This document shows positions 9,052 through 53,171 of a stretch of 53,923 nucleotides of DNA, in pieces; the first letter of the stretch is position 1, and each line of letters begins with the position of its first letter. The notes under the pieces were generated by a model that was given only the letters and a program-made list of their open reading frames with translations, was not told the DNA's origin and made no database searches. Made by a program: the position numbers and the translations under genes. The stretch covers positions 1-53,923 of the IMG/VR virus record IMGVR_UViG_3300041809_000086. One strand, 5' to 3'. The stretch comes from a virus.

Positions 9052-11126
9052 TGGCATTCGCTGACGAATTCGACGCCGCCAAACCAGCCGGACCAGCCGC
9101 CGCGCCGGACAATGGGTCATTTTCTTCCCAATTCGACGCCGCACATGCGTCCATCGGCGGGCAGACTCCGGCCGCCCCTGCCGCGCCCAGGGGCGGCGGC
9201 CTAGGATTGACGACAGGACTCGGCGAAGGGGCGCTGCATATCGCCAGCGGCGGGGCACTGGCGCTGGCCGCCGGGGCGAAAGGATGGTGGAACATGGCGA
9301 ACGGGATGTCGCCGGAAGACAATCAGGCCGATCAAGAGTCCATTTTGGCCCATACCTACCAGCCGACGACCACGATCGGTAAGGCGATCGCCGGGGCGAC
9401 GGACGTTGTCGGGCAGGCAATCGACACGGCCGGGGGATGGGTGGCGGCCAAAACCGGCGATATCTTGGGTTCCAAGGGCCTAGGGGTCGTCGATGACAAC
9501 AGCAACACGATGGCGGCCATCAAAACGGCCGTACACGCGACGACGATGGCGGCGGCACCGAAGATCGTCGGGGAAATACCCGGCGTCGTGGCGGGCGCCA
9601 CAAAGGCCGCAGGGGGCGTTTTGGGCGATACCCTGATTCGCCGGGGCGGTAGTCCGACGGCTCCCCTGAACGAAGTCCCCGGCGCGGCCCCTGGAATCGG
9701 CCCGGCCCCCGGCGCCCCGGCCGCGCCGGGAGCGGCCGGGGCGCAATTCGCGGCCGGAGGTTCGGACGCAGCCGGGGTCATGTCCCGGGTCAGCAGCGCG
9801 ACACCGGAAATGCAGGCCAGCATTCAGGCGCAGATCGCCGATGCGCAAGCCAAATTTGGCGACGCATGGTCGGATCATATCGACTTCGACGCCCTTGGCC
9901 GCCAAGTCGAAGCGGATTCGCTTATGATTCCCGGCCGTCTCAGCGCGCCACAAGCCGCGCAGAATGTTGCCCGGATGTCGGACGATTTCAACAGCAAAAG
10001 CAAGAATCCGCAAGCGGCGGCGTTCTTCGATTGGCAGAACAAGAATCAGGCTGCGAACCTATCCGCAATTCGCGACAGCGTCGGCCCCGATGTCAATACG
10101 ATCAATCCGGCCGAACACGGCGAAACGCTCATCAAGGCGTATCAGGATTTGGACGCGCCCGTCAAGGCTGACATTGACGCCAAATACAAAGCGCTTCGTG
10201 ATGCCAACGGCGGTCAATTCCCGGTCGATGCTGCGCAGCTATATCAAAATATTCAAGAGTCCCTAGGTCATGAATTGTTGACCGATGACGCGCCAGCCGG
10301 ACAAATGAACGCATTGAAAAGTTTCGCCGAAAACGGGAATATGACATTCGAAAACTATCTGGCCCTTCGACGCAATCTTGGCAACGTAGCGCGGGGCGCA
10401 ACTGACGGAAACACTCGATTCGCCGCGTCAACGATGATTCAGGAACTTGAAAATCTTCCGCTTCAAGACGGCGCGGCGGCGTTGCGTCCAATGGCCGATG
10501 CTGCACGCTCGGCGGCCAAAGCGCGATTCGATGCGCTTGACAACGATCCGGCGTATAAAGCCGCCGTCAACGGAAGCGTGGAGCCGGATGATTTCGTCAA
10601 CAAGTTCATCGTTCGCGGCAAGAAGAACAATGTCGCGCAGATGGGGCAGAATTTGGCGAGTAACGATGTTGCCCGTCAAACGATGGGCGTGGCGGTCATG
10701 GATCATTTGCGCGACGCGGCGCGATTGAATTCGAACTATGAAGGCAACTTCGCCGCCGACAGCTTCAATCGCCAAGTCAATCGGTTCGCGCCGAGTATGG
10801 ATACAATCTTCCGCAACGGCGAAGGGGCGCATCTGCGCGCGCTCGGCAACTATGCGCGGAATTCGACATATCAGCCGCGCGGGTCGTCATTCAACAATTC
10901 AGCATCGGCGATAACGTTGATGGGTGAAGCGGCGCGGCAAGCTGGCAGTTTGGCAGGCGGGGCATTCGAAAGCGTAGGAAATGGGATTGTCCCCGGTATG
11001 GGATCAGTCATCAAGAACGTGCTCGGCACACGCGCAGCCAACAAGGCGGCGGCGGCCCAAGCGGCTGAACAGGCCGCATCATTTCAGCGCAACACGATGG
11101 CGGGCGCGGGCGTCTTCAAGGAATAA
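9051..11126 (+). CDS. Probable DNA-ejection/internal virion protein, largest of the set
   Basis: This 691-residue protein starts MAFADEFDAAKPAG and repeats a similar phrase (SSQFDAAHAS) soon after, as in several ejection proteins. The N-terminal 220 residues are Ala/Gly/Pro-rich with hydrophobic helices; from about residue 230 the protein becomes helical and charged (QAQIADAQAKFGD, FDWQNKNQAANLSAIRD). P22 gp16 is of similar size and position. No lysozyme or transglycosylase motif is visible. Start and stop overlap neighbours closely, in line with co-expression. Confidence 0.55.
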   Translation: MAFADEFDAAKPAGPAAAPDNGSFSSQFDAAHASIGGQTPAAPAAPRGGGLGLTTGLGEGALHIASGGALALAAGAKGWWNMANGMSPEDNQADQESILAHTYQPTTTIGKAIAGATDVVGQAIDTAGGWVAAKTGDILGSKGLGVVDDNSNTMAAIKTAVHATTMAAAPKIVGEIPGVVAGATKAAGGVLGDTLIRRGGSPTAPLNEVPGAAPGIGPAPGAPAAPGAAGAQFAAGGSDAAGVMSRVSSATPEMQASIQAQIADAQAKFGDAWSDHIDFDALGRQVEADSLMIPGRLSAPQAAQNVARMSDDFNSKSKNPQAAAFFDWQNKNQAANLSAIRDSVGPDVNTINPAEHGETLIKAYQDLDAPVKADIDAKYKALRDANGGQFPVDAAQLYQNIQESLGHELLTDDAPAGQMNALKSFAENGNMTFENYLALRRNLGNVARGATDGNTRFAASTMIQELENLPLQDGAAALRPMADAARSAAKARFDALDNDPAYKAAVNGSVEPDDFVNKFIVRGKKNNVAQMGQNLASNDVARQTMGVAVMDHLRDAARLNSNYEGNFAADSFNRQVNRFAPSMDTIFRNGEGAHLRALGNYARNSTYQPRGSSFNNSASAITLMGEAARQAGSLAGGAFESVGNGIVPGMGSVIKNVLGTRAANKAAAAQAAEQAASFQRNTMAGAGVFKE

Positions 11127-15944: not shown

Positions 15945-17141
15945 CTATCCTTTGACGCATAGTACCGCCTTCAAGGTCGCGATGACATCGACTAGATCGC
16001 GCTGCGCTTTCATGACGGCGTCTATACTTTTGTAAGCCCCTGGAATTTCGTCCAATACACCAGCATCTTTTCTGCATTCGACTCCCGCAGTTTGGGCCTC
16101 GAGATCGTCAAGCGTGAATTGGCGTTTGGCTTGGGTTCGGGACATGACACGTCCCGCACCGTGCGAACAAGAACAATACGACGATTCGTTCCCTCGGCCC
16201 TGGACGATATAAGATCGCGTACCCATCGAACCGGGAATGATACCCAATTGTCCGGCCCGCGCCTCAACCGCGCCCTTGCGCGTAATCCAAATGTTCCGCC
16301 CATAATGCGACTCCATTTGCGTGAAATTGTGATGACAGTTTACATGCGTCTCGGTTAGTTGGAACTTTGGCAAATGGCGCTCCATCGCGCCGATGACCAG
16401 TTCCATCATGACATCGCGGTTCAGCGCGGCGTAATCTTGCGCCCAATGCATAGCTTCGATGTACGCTTCAAACTCGGGCGTGCCTTCGGGCAACCATCCT
16501 AGATCGCGCTGCGGAATCTCGACGCCGCGCGTGACCATCAGTTCCCGCGCTTGCGTGATCGCCAAGTTCCCGATCTTGTTCCCGACGTTGCGCGATCCCG
16601 AATGCAGCATGATCCAAACCCGATCGTCCGTGTCGAGACAGATTTCGATGAAGTGGTTCCCGCCCCCGAGCGTGCCGACTTGTTCCCAAACTTTCGCGTG
16701 GCTTAGGTCACAAAGATTCATCAAGATTTTCAGCGCGTCAAAGCGAACACGCAAATCCTGCAAGCGCCGAACCAAACGCTTGTCGTATTTCGACGCGCGG
16801 TTGATCGTGTCTTCCGGGTCTTTGTGCTGATTGAAGCCGACCGGAACGTCGCGCTCGATCTGAGCTCGGATGGTCGCCAACGATTCAGGCAAGTCCGTGG
16901 CCCGCAGCGTGGTCCGGACGGCGGCCATGCCGCAGCCGATATCGACGCCGACCGCGCTCGGGATGACCGCGCCTTCGGTTGGAATCACCGACCCGACGCA
17001 TGCGCCGACGCCCATATGAACGTCGGGCATCACCGCGATATGGCCCGCAAGGATGGGCAGTTGCGCAACGTCCGCAAGTTGCTTCAATGCGGCTTCCTCG
17101 ATCGGCATGTCGCCGGTCCACGTCCGAATCATGTCGTTCAT
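15945..17141 (-). CDS. rtcB: RtcB-type RNA ligase
   Basis: RtcB joins RNA 3'-phosphate or 2',3'-cyclic-phosphate ends to 5'-hydroxyl ends using GTP and Mn2+. This 398-residue protein is full length and carries the conserved sites: PDVHMGVG (39-46), VGVDIGCGM with Asp67 and Cys70, GGGNHFIE with His163, LHSGSRN with His180, NCHHNF (269-273) and HGAGR with His327, the residue that is guanylylated in the family. The C-terminus DEIPGAYKSID..LCVKG is also typical. No archease gene is seen nearby. In phages such ligases may repair host-inflicted tRNA or mRNA breaks; that use here is inferred. Confidence 0.93.
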   Translation of the reverse strand: MNDMIRTWTGDMPIEEAALKQLADVAQLPILAGHIAVMPDVHMGVGACVGSVIPTEGAVIPSAVGVDIGCGMAAVRTTLRATDLPESLATIRAQIERDVPVGFNQHKDPEDTINRASKYDKRLVRRLQDLRVRFDALKILMNLCDLSHAKVWEQVGTLGGGNHFIEICLDTDDRVWIMLHSGSRNVGNKIGNLAITQARELMVTRGVEIPQRDLGWLPEGTPEFEAYIEAMHWAQDYAALNRDVMMELVIGAMERHLPKFQLTETHVNCHHNFTQMESHYGRNIWITRKGAVEARAGQLGIIPGSMGTRSYIVQGRGNESSYCSCSHGAGRVMSRTQAKRQFTLDDLEAQTAGVECRKDAGVLDEIPGAYKSIDAVMKAQRDLVDVIATLKAVLCVKG

Positions 17142-18169: not shown

Positions 18170-19920
18170 ACCACCACCCCCAAATCCCGAATCATGCCGA
18201 CCGCGTCGGCCGCATATCGCGAATAGTCGATGTCGTCCGGCACCGCGAACCCTTCCGGCAGTTCCATCAGCGGCCGACAGCCGTCCGACGCGGCGACCTT
18301 GTTCCCGTTCGTCCGGTACAGGATCGGCGCCCCGCTAGTCGCGTAATACCATCGCACCGCGCGCCCAAGGAGCTGGCCGCACCATTCGCCGCCGCCCTTG
18401 ACCTTGCGGATATGGACGAACTTGCGCACATCCTGGCAAGCCTTGATGGTCGTCATGACGGGCGTCCCGGCTTTCATGTATGCGACGACCGCGTCGATGC
18501 AGACTTCGCCGCTCGGGTTGGGCCAGCTTGTTGCGACCGGCACCGGGCGGGCGTAGGCTCCCTTCAACTTGATTGTCCCGTCGGTCTTCATGGCGACATA
18601 GTTGTTCACGTCGCGCGACGCTATCCATGCGTAATCGGCCGCTTCCGTTTCGAACCCGGTTAGCTTGCACCACCATGCGACGACTTGATCGCGCAACCAT
18701 GTCATATCCTTGCGACACTTGATGACGATCCCGTCCGTGTTCGCCGAGACGACGCCGATCCCCGAGATTTCCAACATTTCGATCAGCATCAGCAGCGCGA
18801 GTTGACCCGTCACCGTGACTTGTATCCCGCCGGTCGGATCGTAGAAGATCGACCATTTCGACAACAGTTTGCCGAACACGCCGTTCAAAAAGGTCTTCAA
18901 ACTGTCCGCGTCCTTCTTGTTGCCCGCAGCCTTGGCCGCCAAGCGCCGCGTGTAAACGCTCTGATAGATCGACACGAACTGCGCCCCGATCGCGGGCGGG
19001 ACAATGCCGGTCTTCAAGATTAGCGTCGGATAGTAGGACGCGACATCGACATCTTGCAGAACAAAGGTGTCATCGGCCAGATGCACTTGATTCTGTTCCG
19101 AGCTATGCAGGCCGCCGATACCCATACGGTACACCGACCGGCCGATACGAATCTGATGGCCGCCCAACTCGACGGGCATGTCAACGCCCCCGGCGAAGGT
19201 CGTTTTGAACACCGATCGAGAAAGTAGATCAAGGATGTTCAAATTCTGAAATGCCAGCCATGCGGGCGGTCGATAATAGAACGCGGTCCCCGGCGAGACA
19301 ACCTGACGATTCTTGACGCCGGTCAACTTTTTCATGATCGATTCGGCGATCTGCGGGTCGGACTTGCTGCGAAGATCCATGTCGTACTCGGCGGACATCT
19401 GGACGCGCAAGGCGATCTGCGACGGGAAGGTGTTGAAAAGGTCGCGTGTGGTCGCCAAGTCGTTCCCGCAATACTCGCGCAGGGCGCCCCGCATGTCGGG
19501 CGTGATCGACTCGCTTGGGTCGATCGGCAAATCCTGCAACTTGCGCGAATGCATCTTGCCGCCGTATTCCTTCAAGCTGGTCCGGCCCGGCGCGATTTCG
19601 ATCATGTCGATATGGTCGAAATCGGGCGTTTCAAGATTCCATCGGGAATAGAATTCCCAAGGCTGCAAATTCATGCCGATGATTTCGTCGCAGGCTTGTT
19701 TCAATTGCGCATTGTTCGCCCCGGCCAGCGCGGCGGCGATCAAGGGCATGTCGAAATGGTTCCCGTTGAACGTAACGATAAGATCGGAAGACATTGCCGC
19801 ATGTAATTCTGCGATGTCCATCGGCTGACCGGGGAACATTTCGATATCTTGGATCGGATTGTCCAGTTTCACAAGAAAGTAATCCTTGTAAACTTCAATG
19901 TCCATCATTCGGGCTTGCAT
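18166..19920 (-). CDS. DNA polymerase, family B, compact, with 3'-5' exonuclease
   Basis: This 584-residue protein is short for family B. Exonuclease motifs are DIE (7-9, Exo I), FNGNHFD (51-57, Exo II) and YCGND (150-154, Exo III). Polymerase motif A is DVASYYPTL with Asp292, motif B is LKTFLNGVFG (341-350), and motif C is ANTDGI with Asp396. Motif C has Asn394 where most family-B enzymes have the first Asp of DTD; the essential second Asp is kept. GGAG is eight bases before the ATG. It overlaps the IbrA-like gene by 16 bases. It is probably the replicative polymerase. Confidence 0.88.
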   Translation of the reverse strand: MQARMMDIEVYKDYFLVKLDNPIQDIEMFPGQPMDIAELHAAMSSDLIVTFNGNHFDMPLIAAALAGANNAQLKQACDEIIGMNLQPWEFYSRWNLETPDFDHIDMIEIAPGRTSLKEYGGKMHSRKLQDLPIDPSESITPDMRGALREYCGNDLATTRDLFNTFPSQIALRVQMSAEYDMDLRSKSDPQIAESIMKKLTGVKNRQVVSPGTAFYYRPPAWLAFQNLNILDLLSRSVFKTTFAGGVDMPVELGGHQIRIGRSVYRMGIGGLHSSEQNQVHLADDTFVLQDVDVASYYPTLILKTGIVPPAIGAQFVSIYQSVYTRRLAAKAAGNKKDADSLKTFLNGVFGKLLSKWSIFYDPTGGIQVTVTGQLALLMLIEMLEISGIGVVSANTDGIVIKCRKDMTWLRDQVVAWWCKLTGFETEAADYAWIASRDVNNYVAMKTDGTIKLKGAYARPVPVATSWPNPSGEVCIDAVVAYMKAGTPVMTTIKACQDVRKFVHIRKVKGGGEWCGQLLGRAVRWYYATSGAPILYRTNGNKVAASDGCRPLMELPEGFAVPDDIDYSRYAADAVGMIRDLGVVV

Positions 19921-21101
19921 TTTTTCATCTCCAAATATTTGCCGTACGCCTCACTTTTCGGCTGAGTCAATCCTAAACCTTTACACCAATGATCGTTACG
20001 TAGCAATACCTTGCACATGCGTCGCCAGCTTGGTGCCCAATGCGCGTCTTCGAGGATCTTCGGAACTTCATCAGGAATCGTCGAATAGCCGCGCGTGCGC
20101 CATCCTTTTATGAACGATCGAAAGCGGCCCATATAATGACTGCGAGTCTTCGCCGGTAACGATTGCAACAGCAGATTGCAGAAACTCTGCCACGTATGAC
20201 CTTCGGGTTTCGTTATCTTGTTGTATCCGGTGATATTGCCGCGCTCCTGAATGTATACCGCTCCGGAGTTGGCGCCGTTGACTCGCGCTATCAGCTTGAA
20301 CCATGTCTGCGGTTCGAGAATGTGATAAAGCCATAGGCCCTTGCGCTGATCGTCTCCGTAAGGCTGGCATAATCGCTGCTGACTAATCGAGACTCCGGCC
20401 TTATGCATCTGATCGTAAATTCTGTTGTGGGGCAAATGGGGATAGTGCGCGTAGAATCGCCAAATGTCCTCCGTGCGCCAATCGTAGATTGGGTAAACAT
20501 AGTAAACCTGGTCTTCGATTCGCGTCGTGTACCGTTTTCCATCGCACATCTCCTTATCCCAAATAGCGATGGTTCGAAACCGATTCAGACTTTCGTCCGC
20601 GCGAATTCCGATACATCCTGCCGTTAGCGCGCCTCTCCCATACCATGCGCCGAACAGAATGATGAATTCCTCAAACTCCATACCGGGAACGAACCACGGA
20701 AGATCCTTGGCTGTCTTGGCGCACTTAGGCATGTCGCGCACCCATAACTCGCGCTTCGATTCGTCCCAACACATCCAGCGAGGCTCAAAATTAGTTACAG
20801 CATTGCGCAGTAACAAAGGCACACAGCACCACCATAGATCAATGTGCTCGGCGTACATCTCGACCATTTCATGCAGATGATCTATCGTCGCGGCGTATTG
20901 GGCTTCCAGGTCGATAATTAGCACGCCTACCTTGCGGCCGCGCCGGATAGCTTCTTCCATGACAAGGTGCAGGAGTACGCCGCTGTCCTTTCCTCCGCTG
21001 AACGACACATAGACTCGTTCGAAGTTGTCGAAGGTAAACCTAATGCGCTCACGAGCGGCAGTGAGTACGTCTGCGTCTTGATACTTTTTGAGTGTCGGCA
21101 T
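19905..21101 (-). CDS. PAPS-reductase-family protein, IbrA-like (DUF3440 type)
   Basis: This 398-residue protein has an N-type ATP-pyrophosphatase loop SGGKDSG (35-41), GIRADESLNR (165-174) and YPIYDWRTEDIW (203-214), the signature of phosphoadenylylsulfate-reductase-like PP-loop enzymes of the IbrA group. A conserved aromatic C-terminal half follows. True sulfate assimilation is unlikely in a phage; related proteins act with a ParB-like partner. That partner, IbrB-like, is encoded directly upstream with a TGACATG junction. The biochemical reaction of this family is not established. Confidence 0.85.
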   Translation of the reverse strand: MPTLKKYQDADVLTAARERIRFTFDNFERVYVSFSGGKDSGVLLHLVMEEAIRRGRKVGVLIIDLEAQYAATIDHLHEMVEMYAEHIDLWWCCVPLLLRNAVTNFEPRWMCWDESKRELWVRDMPKCAKTAKDLPWFVPGMEFEEFIILFGAWYGRGALTAGCIGIRADESLNRFRTIAIWDKEMCDGKRYTTRIEDQVYYVYPIYDWRTEDIWRFYAHYPHLPHNRIYDQMHKAGVSISQQRLCQPYGDDQRKGLWLYHILEPQTWFKLIARVNGANSGAVYIQERGNITGYNKITKPEGHTWQSFCNLLLQSLPAKTRSHYMGRFRSFIKGWRTRGYSTIPDEVPKILEDAHWAPSWRRMCKVLLRNDHWCKGLGLTQPKSEAYGKYLEMKKCKPE

Positions 21102-36769: not shown

Positions 36770-36796
36770 CAAGACCCGCTGAAGCGGGCATTCTTA

Positions 36797-36826
36797 GGGC
36801 GACCCGATCAGACGGTCGCCCTTTTT
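36797..36826 (+). terminator. Intrinsic terminator, rightward
   Basis: GGGCGACC (36797-36804) and GGTCGCCC (36814-36821) form an 8-bp stem with a 9-base loop, followed by TTTTTCTT. It separates the two small genes above from the GroES-like gene. Confidence 0.85.
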
Positions 36827-44763: not shown

Positions 44764-44772
44764 TGATATACT
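44764..44772 (+). promoter_or_regulatory. Extended -10 promoter TGaTATACT before portal
   Basis: TG, one base and TATACT stand 82 bases before the portal ATG. It would start RNA near 44779. No -35 is evident. Confidence 0.5.
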
Positions 44773-48659: not shown

Positions 48660-48844
48660 TAAATCGAAGGCAAGTGTGCGAAGTCTGCGGCCACCCGGCA
48701 AGATACGGTTTTGCCGGGTCGTGGACTTGCTCGCAAGCCTGTTTTCAAAGTTGGACGATCGCGAGCATCAATGCCGCGCTCGCGATAAGGAAGGCCGCAA
48801 ATGTTCACCGTGATCGTCCCCGTCAATCGCCCTTGGCAATTTGA
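48656..48844 (+). CDS. Small zinc-ribbon-like protein
   Basis: This 62-residue protein has CEVCGHPARYGFAGSWTCSQAC: CxxC and CxxxC spaced by 14 residues, a likely zinc finger. It overlaps the glycosyltransferase gene by 44 bases, more than most pairs here, so either the end of this frame or the start of the next may be set differently. Function is unknown. Confidence 0.55.
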   Translation: MINRRQVCEVCGHPARYGFAGSWTCSQACFQSWTIASINAALAIRKAANVHRDRPRQSPLAI

Positions 48845-50135
48845 ACAGAACATCCTATCTTCGCCAGGACTGGCCGAAGTCAAGGCACAAATCATCGCCA
48901 TCAATGAAGCGGGCAACGCCTCTCAAGGATTCAACACGGCCAAGCCTGTCGCGCAGTACGAATGGATCATGTACGCGCATCAGGACGTGTTCTTCCCCGA
49001 AGGCTCGGGCCTTGCGATTGTCGAAGCATTGAAAGACGCGCCGCATGATCGACCGATCGGGTTCGCCGGGATGGACGTTGATGGCAACTATGTCGGGCAA
49101 GTCGTCGATCGCGGGAACGCTTGGGATTTTCCCGGCGGGGACGCGATCACGCTGGACGAATGCGCGATCATCCTGCACCGCGACGCGCTGATCGACATCG
49201 ACCCGGCGTTAGGCTGGCATCTATGGGCGACGGATCTGTGCTTGCAAGCCGGGGGCGGCGTCGTTCTGCCTATCAGGATCGAGCATAATTCGATCACGCC
49301 GCGCATTAGCGATGTCAGCGCCGAATATCGCGCGAGCGCGGCCGTCCTGATGCACAATTGGACCGAATTCAACGTGATTCGCACGCTCTGCGCGTCGATA
49401 TGTCGCCACAAGCCCGACGTGAACATCTGCGTCGTCAAGCCGCGCGGGTACGAGCATTCGGCCGGGCTGATGGATGCGGCGACATACTTCGCCTATATGT
49501 TCCGGCGCTTGGGAGCGCGGGTCCAAATCGATTACAACCATTTGCGGACCGATTCGCCGAACATCGTGTTCGGGGCGCATCTAGGATTTCCATTCGAGCG
49601 CGACGATTGTGTCATCGTGGACTTGGAGCAAGACGGCGCGGATCTGACCGACGAATATCGCGCATTGCTTGCGCGGTCCCCGGTCGTGTCGCTGGCCGAC
49701 GTGCGCTTCGGATATGCGCCGTATCTCGATCTTCCGCGCCCCGAACCGAAGGTCGATGTCTTGTTCTTCGGGTCGATGAACGATCGCCGCCGCGCGTACC
49801 TGAACGCGACCGGGATGAAGATCGCTTACGTCCAAAGGCCCGTCTATGGCGAAGATCGCAACGCGACCGTGCGAGCCTCGGACGCCGTCATCAACTGTCA
49901 TGCATACGACGGCGCGTTGTTCGAGAAGGTCCGCGCATTCATGGTCTTGTCGATGGGGACCGAGCTAATCAGCGAAGGCCCGGTCGATCCTGACTATGCG
50001 CCGTATGTGACATGGCTCGACATAGATGAGCGGCGACGCTACATTCGAGGCGATGTCGAAGCGTTCAAGTCATTCGATCCAATCGAAGATTACGAGCGCA
50101 TTTTGACCCTAGCCCGCAGTACCAAAAATATGTGA
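48801..50135 (+). CDS. Two-domain glycosyltransferase
   Basis: This 444-residue protein begins MFTVIVPVNRPWQFEQNIL with a GT-A like fold and the phrase MYAHQDVFF (58-65), typical of GT2-like transferases with an HQD motif, followed by DECAIILHRDAL and LGWHLWATDLCL. A second part from about residue 190 (IRTLCASICRHKPDVNICVVKPRGYEHSAG, NIVFGAHLGFPF, DVLFFGSMNDRRRAYL) looks like a separate GT-B-type domain. It lies between scaffold and coat genes. Modification of the coat or tail, or of the host surface, are options. Confidence 0.7.
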   Translation: MFTVIVPVNRPWQFEQNILSSPGLAEVKAQIIAINEAGNASQGFNTAKPVAQYEWIMYAHQDVFFPEGSGLAIVEALKDAPHDRPIGFAGMDVDGNYVGQVVDRGNAWDFPGGDAITLDECAIILHRDALIDIDPALGWHLWATDLCLQAGGGVVLPIRIEHNSITPRISDVSAEYRASAAVLMHNWTEFNVIRTLCASICRHKPDVNICVVKPRGYEHSAGLMDAATYFAYMFRRLGARVQIDYNHLRTDSPNIVFGAHLGFPFERDDCVIVDLEQDGADLTDEYRALLARSPVVSLADVRFGYAPYLDLPRPEPKVDVLFFGSMNDRRRAYLNATGMKIAYVQRPVYGEDRNATVRASDAVINCHAYDGALFEKVRAFMVLSMGTELISEGPVDPDYAPYVTWLDIDERRRYIRGDVEAFKSFDPIEDYERILTLARSTKNM

Positions 50136-50141
50136 TACTAT
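50133..50141 (+). promoter_or_regulatory. Extended -10 promoter TGaTACTAT before coat gene
   Basis: TG, one base and TACTAT overlap the stop of the glycosyltransferase. RNA would begin near 50148. A 5-bp stem CGCCC-GACG-GGGCG (50156-50169) lies close to the predicted 5' end. Confidence 0.45.
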
Positions 50142-50288: not shown

Positions 50289-51539
50289 ATGGCAAACACC
50301 CTTTTGACGATTTCCAAGATCACCAACGAAGCCCTAATGGTGCTGGAAAACGAACTCGTTTTCACGAAGCAAGTCAACCGCGCATACGAAGATCAGTTCG
50401 CGATCGTCGGAGCCAAGATCGGTAATACCGTGAACGTCCGCCGTCCGGCGCGCTTCATCGGCACGACCGGCCCGGCCCTGAACGTCGAAGACTTCAACGA
50501 GACTTCGATCCCGGTCGTACTGACAACCCAGTTTCACGTGGACACCCAATTTACCACGCAAGACCTTGCGTTGTCCTTGGATATGTTCTCGGATCGAGTG
50601 CTGAAGCCCGCCATCGCGACCATCGCGAACAAGGTGGACTTTGACGCCACCACGACCGCCGCGAATGGCATCGCCAATATCGTCGGCGTTGCTGGCACGC
50701 CGCCTACCGGCTTGCTTACCTACCTGAACGCCGGGGCCTACCTCGACGCCGAAGGTGCGCCGCGCGATGGTCAGCGTACCGTCACCGTCGAGCCGTTCAC
50801 CGGTGCGACGATCGTTGACAGCTTGAAGGGCCTTTTCGTGCCGCAAGCGCAGATCAGCGAGCAGTTCCGCAAAGGCTTGATGGGCCGCGATAGCGCCGGG
50901 ATGGACTGGTTTCAAGACCAGAACATCGTGTCGCATACCTTCGGTTCGTATTCCTCGACCGCCGGTTCGCTGACTGTGTCGGCCGCTGGTCAAGGTCTCG
51001 CGACTGGTTGGGCTTCCACGTCTACCCTGACGCTGGTCGCTTCCCAAACGCTGACCTTGAACGCTGGCGACACGATCCAAATCGCGGGCGTGTATGCGGT
51101 TAACCCGCAAAACCGTCAAGCGTATGGTTCGAACAAGCTGCGCAACTTCGTTATCACCGCGACGACTGCACCGTTCACGACCGCAACTGCCGTTACCGTC
51201 AGCCCCGCGCTGATCTACGGCGGCCAGTTCCAGAACGTAACGGCCAGCCCGTCTTCGACCGCGCTTGTGACCCCGTTCTCTGCGGCCGCATCTGCCGCTG
51301 GCGTAGTCAGCCCGCAAAACATCGTCATGCACAAGAATTGCCTGACGCTTGCGGTCGCCGATCTGGAATTGCCCGACGGCGTTCACTTCGCCGGGCGTGC
51401 CAGTGACGAAGAAATCGGCCTCAGCATTCGCGTGGTTCGTCAGTACACCATCAATAACGACGCGATCCCGTGCCGTCTCGATGTCCTGTACGGATTGGCA
51501 ATGCTGTATCCGGAATTGGGCTGCCGCGTAGCCGCCTAA
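50289..51539 (+). CDS. Major capsid (coat) protein, P22-like
   Basis: This 416-residue protein forms the capsid shell. It starts MANTLLTISKITNEALMVLEN and has TVNVRRPARFIGTTGP, VLTTQFHVDTQFTTQDLALSLDMFSDR, ATIANKVDFDATTTA and a C-terminal IGLSIRVVRQYTINNDAIPCRLDVLYG segment, the outline of the P22 coat family. An inserted domain near residues 210-320 (SLTVSAAGQGL, TLTLVASQTLTLNAGDTIQIAGV, AYGSNKLRNFVI) corresponds to the surface insertion of P22 coat. GGAG precedes the ATG. Strong expression is expected. Confidence 0.9.
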   Translation: MANTLLTISKITNEALMVLENELVFTKQVNRAYEDQFAIVGAKIGNTVNVRRPARFIGTTGPALNVEDFNETSIPVVLTTQFHVDTQFTTQDLALSLDMFSDRVLKPAIATIANKVDFDATTTAANGIANIVGVAGTPPTGLLTYLNAGAYLDAEGAPRDGQRTVTVEPFTGATIVDSLKGLFVPQAQISEQFRKGLMGRDSAGMDWFQDQNIVSHTFGSYSSTAGSLTVSAAGQGLATGWASTSTLTLVASQTLTLNAGDTIQIAGVYAVNPQNRQAYGSNKLRNFVITATTAPFTTATAVTVSPALIYGGQFQNVTASPSSTALVTPFSAAASAAGVVSPQNIVMHKNCLTLAVADLELPDGVHFAGRASDEEIGLSIRVVRQYTINNDAIPCRLDVLYGLAMLYPELGCRVAA

Positions 51540-51615: not shown

Positions 51616-52107
51616 ATGAGCAATCCCGGACCCGCAACCCAAGTTACGCAGAACACGCAAGCCATTCTGGCCCCGATTCAGAATCCGAACGCGAACAGCG
51701 CGGCAGGCCCGATCCAAGGCACGAACGCCCGGCGCTTGCTGGCCGTCGCTCGGTCCGTGAATCTCGGGTCGGCTGTCGATACCGACACCATCGCGCCGAT
51801 CATCAATTCCCTGTCCTATCTGGTCGAGGAAGTTTGGGTCGGCAACGTGCAAGTCGCGGGCGCCGCTGCCGCTGCTGCCACGGCCGCCGTCGGCGTGTAT
51901 ACCGCTTCCCAACAGGGCGGAACCGCCATCGTGACGAAAGCGATCCTTACGTCGCTGTCCAGCGCGTTGAATCAGTTCGTATCGATGACCGTCGTCGCCG
52001 CGCAAACGATCCTGGCCCAAACCGTGACCCAACTTTACGTGAACGTCGCGACCAGCTTCCCGAGCGCGACTTGCGACGTGTTCGTGTTTGGGGTCGATCT
52101 GACCTAA
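51616..52107 (+). CDS. Virion protein after the coat gene
   Basis: This 163-residue protein is A/T/V/N/Q-rich, beginning MSNPGPATQVTQNTQAILAP with SLSYLVEEVWVGNVQVAG, ALNQFVSMTVVAAQTIL and an end FPSATCDVFVFGVDLT. The position right after coat is where head accessory or decoration proteins occur. GGACGAAATC before the ATG provides a modest ribosome site. No family is recognised. Confidence 0.6.
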   Translation: MSNPGPATQVTQNTQAILAPIQNPNANSAAGPIQGTNARRLLAVARSVNLGSAVDTDTIAPIINSLSYLVEEVWVGNVQVAGAAAAAATAAVGVYTASQQGGTAIVTKAILTSLSSALNQFVSMTVVAAQTILAQTVTQLYVNVATSFPSATCDVFVFGVDLT

Positions 52108-52117
52108 TGCTGAAATC

Positions 52118-52126
52118 TGGTATCAT
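52118..52126 (+). promoter_or_regulatory. Extended -10 promoter TGgTATCAT
   Basis: TG, one base and TATCAT; a CTGACC -35-like hexamer lies 17 bases before TATCAT. RNA would start about 52132-52134, inside the left arm of the next hairpin. Confidence 0.5.
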
Positions 52127-52155
52127 GGGCGGTACCCGAAAAGGAACCGCCCATG
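52124..52155 (+). promoter_or_regulatory. Hairpin sequestering a start codon, with the Shine-Dalgarno in its loop
   Basis: CATGGGCGGT (52124-52133) and ACCGCCCATG (52146-52155) form a perfect 10-bp stem; the loop holds AAAAGGA and the ATG at 52153 lies in the 3' arm. Only transcripts read from upstream of 52124 contain both arms; transcripts beginning at the promoter here would lack most of the left arm. Confidence 0.65.
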
Positions 52156-52848
52156 ACCCCGAAACAGCTTGTAATTTTTGCCGTGCCGACGTATGGGCAC
52201 GGATGCGCGATAGAGTTTTCCCGATCCTGCATGGAATTGGGAGCGACGCTGGCGATGAAGAAAATCCCCTTCGCCTTCACGTCGTTAGGTGGCAATTGCT
52301 TCATAGATCAGGCGCGCAATGCGCTGATCCAGAAAGCGATGGACACAAGCAAGTATTACGCGACCGACATTTTCTTCCTTGATGACGATGTCGGATTCCC
52401 CGCGAAGGCGGCGATTGATTTACTGGAACGCCCCGAAGACATCGTCTGCGGCGTGTATCCGAAAAAGGCTGATACGGAACTGTATCCGGTCAGCCTGCTA
52501 GTTGATGATGACGGCAAGTTCATCGAAAGCGATGACGGCGTCTTGAAGTTGGCAGACATGATTTGCGGCGGCTTTCTCAGAATCAAGCGTCACGTTCTGG
52601 AAAAGATGTCGGAAGGTGCGGAAACTTATCCGTACTTGAACGAGGATGGCTCGGTCGTAACTGTGACCGAGATTTTCGAGTCAGGACGGCGAAACGGGTT
52701 GTACTTTGGGGAAGACACGCTGTTCGCGTACAAGGCCCAGAAAGCCGGGTTCGATATCTGGTGCAAGCCCGACATCACATTCACGCACCGGGGCAGCAAG
52801 GCATGGCGCGGCAACGTCGCCGAATTTTTGAAGGGTAAATCAACATGA
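52153..52848 (+). CDS. GT-A type glycosyltransferase
   Basis: This 231-residue protein has FFLDDDVGF with Asp77-79 (metal and nucleotide-sugar binding DxD motif), VCGVYPKK (98-105), CGGFLRIKR (138-146) and LYFGEDTLF (183-191) with GED and an aromatic C-terminus with ITFTHRG (208-214), typical of small phage GT2-like transferases. Substrate is unknown. The AAAAGGA ribosome site lies in a hairpin loop, and an extended -10 stands just before it. It is embedded among virion genes; modification of a virion protein is an inference. Confidence 0.8.
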   Translation: MTPKQLVIFAVPTYGHGCAIEFSRSCMELGATLAMKKIPFAFTSLGGNCFIDQARNALIQKAMDTSKYYATDIFFLDDDVGFPAKAAIDLLERPEDIVCGVYPKKADTELYPVSLLVDDDGKFIESDDGVLKLADMICGGFLRIKRHVLEKMSEGAETYPYLNEDGSVVTVTEIFESGRRNGLYFGEDTLFAYKAQKAGFDIWCKPDITFTHRGSKAWRGNVAEFLKGKST

Positions 52849-53171
52849 GCAAGTCTACCATCGCACGCGGCAACGCTATCCGCCTGAACATGATTCAGGT
52901 CAAGTTGACCCCGGCCGCTGTCGGAACCACGGCAGGCGCAGAACAAACTTTCAGCGTGCAGGATATCGCCGTCGGCGACTTCGTCGAAGTCAACTGCAAC
53001 GCGGCGCAGAACACGAACGTCGGCATCACGAACGCCCGGGTCAGCGCGACGAACGTCCTGGCCGTTGGGTTCAGCAACGTCGCCAGCGTCGCCGAGACAC
53101 CGACCGCCGGGCTTTACAACGTGCTGATTACTCGCTGCGAAGATAGCCCGATTCCGAGCAACACGATCTAA
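52845..53171 (+). CDS. Probable virion accessory protein
   Basis: This 108-residue protein begins MSKSTIARGNAIRLNMIQVKLTP, with FSVQDIAVGDFVEVNCNAAQN and LYNVLITRCED; it looks like a small beta-sandwich. It overlaps the glycosyltransferase by four bases and sits beside another virion protein candidate, so a head-decoration or stabilisation role is plausible. Confidence 0.6.
   Translation: MSKSTIARGNAIRLNMIQVKLTPAAVGTTAGAEQTFSVQDIAVGDFVEVNCNAAQNTNVGITNARVSATNVLAVGFSNVASVAETPTAGLYNVLITRCEDSPIPSNTI

Follow-up and report, generated by a model that had tools for sequence, protein, structure and literature searches.

The T4 genes in which a hairpin closes the translation start are taken to be timing devices for late genes with T4 late promoters. 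On long RNA, a hairpin masks the ribosome binding site of segB and mobE as well as of the T4 genes e, soc, 49 and I-TevI (PMC3014915, PMC2988022). For e and I-TevI, which have been described in detail, the RNA made from the late promoter lacks the 5' arm of that hairpin (PMC3014915, PMC2988022). Regulation is established and a timing role documented for gene e, which encodes lysozyme (PMC3014915).

We analyzed a comparable arrangement at the start of a glycosyltransferase gene in an IMG/VR virus record from an environmental P22-type phage. The window, meaning the whole stretch of DNA that was analyzed, has 53,923 bases and is 58.7% GC; no DNA similarity to it was found in phage records. The late region runs in the order terminase, portal, scaffold, a 444-aa protein, P22-family coat, a 163-aa protein and the enzyme gene. 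On the 3' side of the enzyme gene lie genes for a 108-aa and a 136-aa protein, followed by the beginning of a gene related to an unassigned PHROG family. The genes around the junction are as follows.

50289-51539, + strand: P22-family coat protein gene, the supposed source of read-through RNA
51616-52107, + strand: 163-aa gene after the coat gene, with homologues that precede the terminator slot in most relatives
52153-52848, + strand: gene for the GT-A-fold glycosyltransferase, 231 aa, phrog_1574
52845-53171, + strand: 108-aa gene, which overlaps the end of the enzyme gene and has an open start region

The enzyme belongs to phrog_1574 and had no Pfam family match. A model built from six aligned homologues (pLDDT 84.5) matched PDB entries with the GT-A fold, namely LH3, beta4GalT7 (beta-1,4-galactosyltransferase 7) and the PBCV-1 capsid glycosyltransferase. 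An acidic metal-binding motif, DDD, lies at residues 77-79, and its first and last Asp are invariant. The enzyme has both the fold and the metal-binding motif of a GT-A glycosyltransferase, and the modeling makes that assignment well supported. Its closest relatives are the enzymes of loci L088 and L089 (35% identity); the sequences in the enzyme alignment were too divergent to scan. Close relatives in IMG/VR were found neither for the enzyme nor for the 163-aa protein; none was found for the L088 enzyme, and the enzyme of locus L051 recovered its own contig only.

The 444-aa gene (48801-50135, in the scaffold/coat interval) matches a glycosyltransferase family weakly, below the threshold. Among the loci first fetched, its only relative was an identical copy in L002. 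Elsewhere in the window, an RtcB-type RNA ligase gene (15945-17141, - strand) has a DNA polymerase gene and, at 19905-21101, a PAPS reductase-like gene in its neighborhood.

A hairpin over the start of the enzyme gene

The 163-aa gene and the enzyme start are separated by 45 nt, and the hairpin starts 16 nt past the stop codon. Positions 52118-52156 read TGGTATCATGGGCGGTACCCGAAAAGGAACCGCCCATGA. The features in and just upstream of this stretch are listed below.

52099-52104, + strand: -35-like hexamer CTGACC (4 of 6), with a 16-bp spacer
52118-52126, + strand: extended -10, TGGTATCAT; its last four bases are the first four of the left arm
52123-52133, + strand: left arm of the hairpin, TCATGGGCGGT
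52131-52135, + strand: predicted RNA start, about 52133, placed from the position of the -10
52135-52144, + strand: upper part of the hairpin, CC (52135-52136) with GG (52143-52144), loop CGAAAA
52139-52145, + strand: Shine-Dalgarno AAAAGGA, 7 nt before the ATG, read from the sequence
52146-52156, + strand: right arm of the hairpin, ACCGCCCATGA, which holds the start codon

The stem TCATGGGCGGT/ACCGCCCATGA consists of 11 perfect pairs, one more than was given in a preliminary description of this locus. That description had also placed AAAAGGA in the loop, an extended -10 at 52118-52126 that would begin RNA within the left arm, and the start codon in the 3' arm; the sequence bears out all three positions. 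An A.A mismatch separates the 11-bp stem from the two upper C-G pairs, and because of these upper pairs the G's of the Shine-Dalgarno are paired as well. The ATG inside the 3' arm (52153-52155) is the first start of the 231-aa ORF, and the N-terminus of the enzyme aligns with the N-termini of its relatives.

For the 161-nt region the predicted folding energy is -64.3 kcal/mol, compared with an average of -48.3 for shuffles (z = -4.39), and 0 of 200 shuffles were as stable. In 12 shuffles of the whole window, perfect inverted repeats of at least 11 bp occurred 0 to 3 times per 54 kb, and the paired pattern appeared in none of the window shuffles, even when 3 mismatches were allowed. A perfect 11-bp repeat exactly on a gene start is unlikely, if not astronomically so. 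The hairpin is a real observation and its origin by chance is improbable. Rfam gave no hit at the hairpin and only sub-threshold hits elsewhere.

Other palindromes were seen. At 9712-9744, within a long ORF, lies a perfect inverted repeat of 13 bp whose loop has 7 nt. The only IMG/VR contig with an exact-arm palindrome, L086, has it between two genes, where it carries the start of no listed ORF; this match was set aside, as about one such match is expected by chance by our own estimate.

The promoter-like site and predicted opening of the start

Of the sites on the two strands of the window, the junction site ranked 22nd by promoter score, so that on score alone its strength is only moderate. 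Its late-region context suggests a credible promoter. On the + strand of the last 12 kb, the pattern TGnTAnnnT occurs only three times, upstream of the portal, coat and enzyme genes, and it occurs nowhere within 10.9 kb of late coding sequence. Three or more occurrences in shuffled gaps had a P of 0.001, which is somewhat generous since the pattern was picked after the junction site had been seen. The two other sites are given here.

44764-44772, + strand: extended -10-like TGATATACT, upstream of the portal gene
50133-50141, + strand: extended -10-like TGATACTAT, upstream of the coat gene

With its extended -10, the junction promoter looks host-type, and the coat site (50133) is of the same type as the junction site (52118). 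Their likeness argues against the timing switch that the preliminary description had proposed. Nothing suggests that the coat TGATACTAT and junction TGGTATCAT sites fire at different times, and a search of the record for a sigma factor (sigma-70 region 2 protein), with positive controls, found none. A search of the record for a phage RNA polymerase (PF00940) gave no match, but its controls were silent too.

We computed how much energy is needed to open the start region (-20 to +15); for the read-through form, 120 nt of upstream RNA were included. For the read-through RNA, on which a stable hairpin is predicted to cover both the Shine-Dalgarno and the start codon, opening would cost 27.0 kcal/mol, a rough figure like all opening energies from folding programs. 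Of all starts tested in the window (23 gene starts and 85 Shine-Dalgarno/ATG sites), this one was the most closed. The predicted cost fell to 17.5 kcal/mol for RNA from 52127, to 6.5 from 52131 and to 4.8-5.2 from 52132-52134. By its geometry, an RNA from the predicted start would lack the 5' arm.

T4 gene e served as a positive control in the same calculation, with 17.0 kcal/mol for the long RNA and 3.9 or 1.1 from the two late promoters. For T4 soc the cost went from 11.1 to 8.5, a small gain that depends on an assumed RNA start, and soc backs the geometry more than the energies. The drop from 27 to about 5 kcal/mol at the window start agrees with the earlier proposal that a locally started RNA could not fold the stem, and the T4 analogy drawn with it is apt, through energies for e and through geometry for soc. 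The preliminary interpretation is supported for the geometry, the promoter position, the local RNA, the analogy and, through the fold, the glycosyltransferase label; it is not supported for the timing switch.

The starts of the portal and 444-aa genes are also fairly closed (20.3 and 20.6 kcal/mol), so closed starts are not unique to the enzyme gene in this genome. Two hairpins at 48680-48830 precede the 444-aa gene (ATG 48801; fold z -2.91). Opening the start region of the 108-aa gene costs 4.2 kcal/mol, and with so open a start this gene need not be affected by the hairpin.

The same slot in related phages

The coat protein was used to gather 80 viral loci, plus phage records and bacterial contigs, and the slot was tallied in the 36 non-redundant loci carrying a homologue of the 163-aa gene. 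All 36 have a hairpin 8-23 nt past the homologue's stop codon, with the next start codon outside it, and in 35 of them a T-tract follows, which makes an intrinsic terminator. A -10-like box lies 5-17 nt beyond the hairpin in 26/36, vs 31% in shuffled spacers. The slot stems are unlike one another except for an A-rich loop. Where the phrog_1574 enzyme comes directly next (the L029 and L043 groups, L051 and L063), the order is terminator, Shine-Dalgarno, ATG. A compact terminator-promoter junction is recurrent in related P22-coat phages. In L003, L020, L021, L045 and others, the terminator after the 163-aa homologue is followed by a TATAAT or TACAAT box within 5-17 nt.

The window differs from all of the tallied relatives in combining the lack of a T-tract with a start inside the stem and a -10 across the left arm, and its hairpin was found in no relative. 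Its hairpin occupies the spot where the family appears to place an insulator. This is the main new point, and the relatives' terminator was missed by the preliminary description, which saw one sequence alone. L088 and L089 retain a terminator-like hairpin with a T-tract. In L088 (6646-6682), as in L089, that hairpin lies between a Shine-Dalgarno AAGGA and an ATG directly after the T-tract, and folding would place AAGGA and ATG within about 7 nt of each other. The bacterial contig L090, an exception outside the tallied set, has no obvious terminator in the slot.

We favor, with moderate confidence, the reading that hairpin and promoter form a translational gate or insulator in a terminator's place. 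On long RNAs presumed to read through from the coat and 163-aa genes, the hairpin would form and block translation of the glycosyltransferase. The promoter across the left arm, if active, would start a short RNA near 52133, which would lack the left arm and leave the Shine-Dalgarno and start codon free. In the relatives, the intrinsic terminator in the slot would part the abundant coat message from the downstream genes; the window phage, having no T-tract, appears to rely on insulation of translation instead. As a speculation, the untranslated 0.7-kb message could invite Rho termination. Since the relatives carry a terminator in this exact slot, insulation from coat transcription is a better-supported role than timing. 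More tentatively, the conserved terminator-promoter junction may have become a promoter-in-hairpin translational gate in one lineage, with insulation of translation replacing insulation of transcription, possibly together with Rho-dependent polarity. We infer the hairpin's descent from a terminator from its position only.

It is unlikely that the hairpin is still the family terminator in a degenerate or unconventional form, in which it would terminate the coat message or shield its 3' end and would overlap the start through incidental crowding. Its slot, its spacing from the stop codon and its similarly A-rich loop do match the relatives' terminators. However, an intrinsic terminator is a GC-rich hairpin followed by a T-tract, and here a T-tract is present on neither strand: the + strand tail CCCCGAAACA has no T in its first 8 bases, and there is no T-rich tail on the opposite strand. 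This genome has at least one canonical-looking terminator (36796-36822, then TTTTCTT), and the overlap at the junction covers the Shine-Dalgarno and ATG exactly. On the + strand from the coat gene to the enzyme start, no terminator-like site was found.

The hairpin might instead be a constant brake on enzyme translation on all RNAs, with the promoter-like site unused and no switch between two RNAs. The moderate promoter score fits this explanation, and a site such as that at the junction arises in about 2% of shuffled junctions, so that it may be fortuitous. We consider it quite improbable, however, given that 3/3 late-region TGnTAnnnT sites lie upstream of late genes, that most relatives have a -10-like box at the junction, and that a 27-kcal/mol brake would all but switch off the enzyme gene if there were no second RNA.

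A perfect inverted repeat over a promoter-like site also resembles a DNA operator for a dimeric regulator of the adjoining promoter, with RNA pairing incidental. This is very unlikely: half-sites are not enriched in the window (25 vs 21.6 expected, with up to 2 mismatches), and an operator has no need of a Shine-Dalgarno in its 12-nt spacer or an ATG in its arm. Although some shuffled windows do yield perfect repeats of at least 11 bp, a chance palindrome with no function is hardly believable for the most closed start tested, with its low fold z and its exact placement on the Shine-Dalgarno and ATG in the family's hairpin slot.

If the gate reading is true, a soc-like gate with a host-type promoter in a coat operon and a family-wide terminator slot would mean that the device can arise independently, and that it can serve to separate gene dosage instead of time. 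The slot would then offer a natural comparison of dozens of relatives with a terminator vs one with a gate.

Comparison with T4-type gates

One of the closest known systems is T4 soc, the leader of which reads CATGTAATT-TAAATAAAGGAG-AATTACATG. Its arms, CATGTAATT and AATTACATG, enclose a 12-nt loop with the Shine-Dalgarno, its start codon lies in the 3' arm and its promoter -10 is just upstream of the left arm. The window follows nearly the same plan, with 11-bp arms including CATG and a 12-nt loop with the Shine-Dalgarno, and the two have no sequence or gene in common. In soc a phage late promoter, TATAAATA, is paired with an early read-through RNA, whereas the window has a host-type-looking promoter and a read-through RNA that would come from the coat operon.

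T4 gene e likewise has a longer RNA with an inhibitory hairpin, late promoters in the part encoding the left arm and a short, well-translated RNA (PMC3014915). Its timing role is documented, whereas timing is unsupported in the window. In I-TevI and segB of T4 and mobE of Aeh1, the promoter is placed so that the local RNA lacks the sequence for the inhibitory structure (PMC2988022). There an endonuclease is delayed, whereas the window gene encodes a glycosyltransferase in a structural operon. The terminator-promoter junction of P22-coat relatives shares the slot, a hairpin 8-23 nt past the stop and a nearby -10-like box, but it has the T-tract (35/36) and a next start outside the hairpin, and the window has neither. 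By this comparison, the window case would belong structurally to the T4-type promoter-in-hairpin gates. Its promoter type, the kind of upstream RNA and the slot where it sits set it apart from them.
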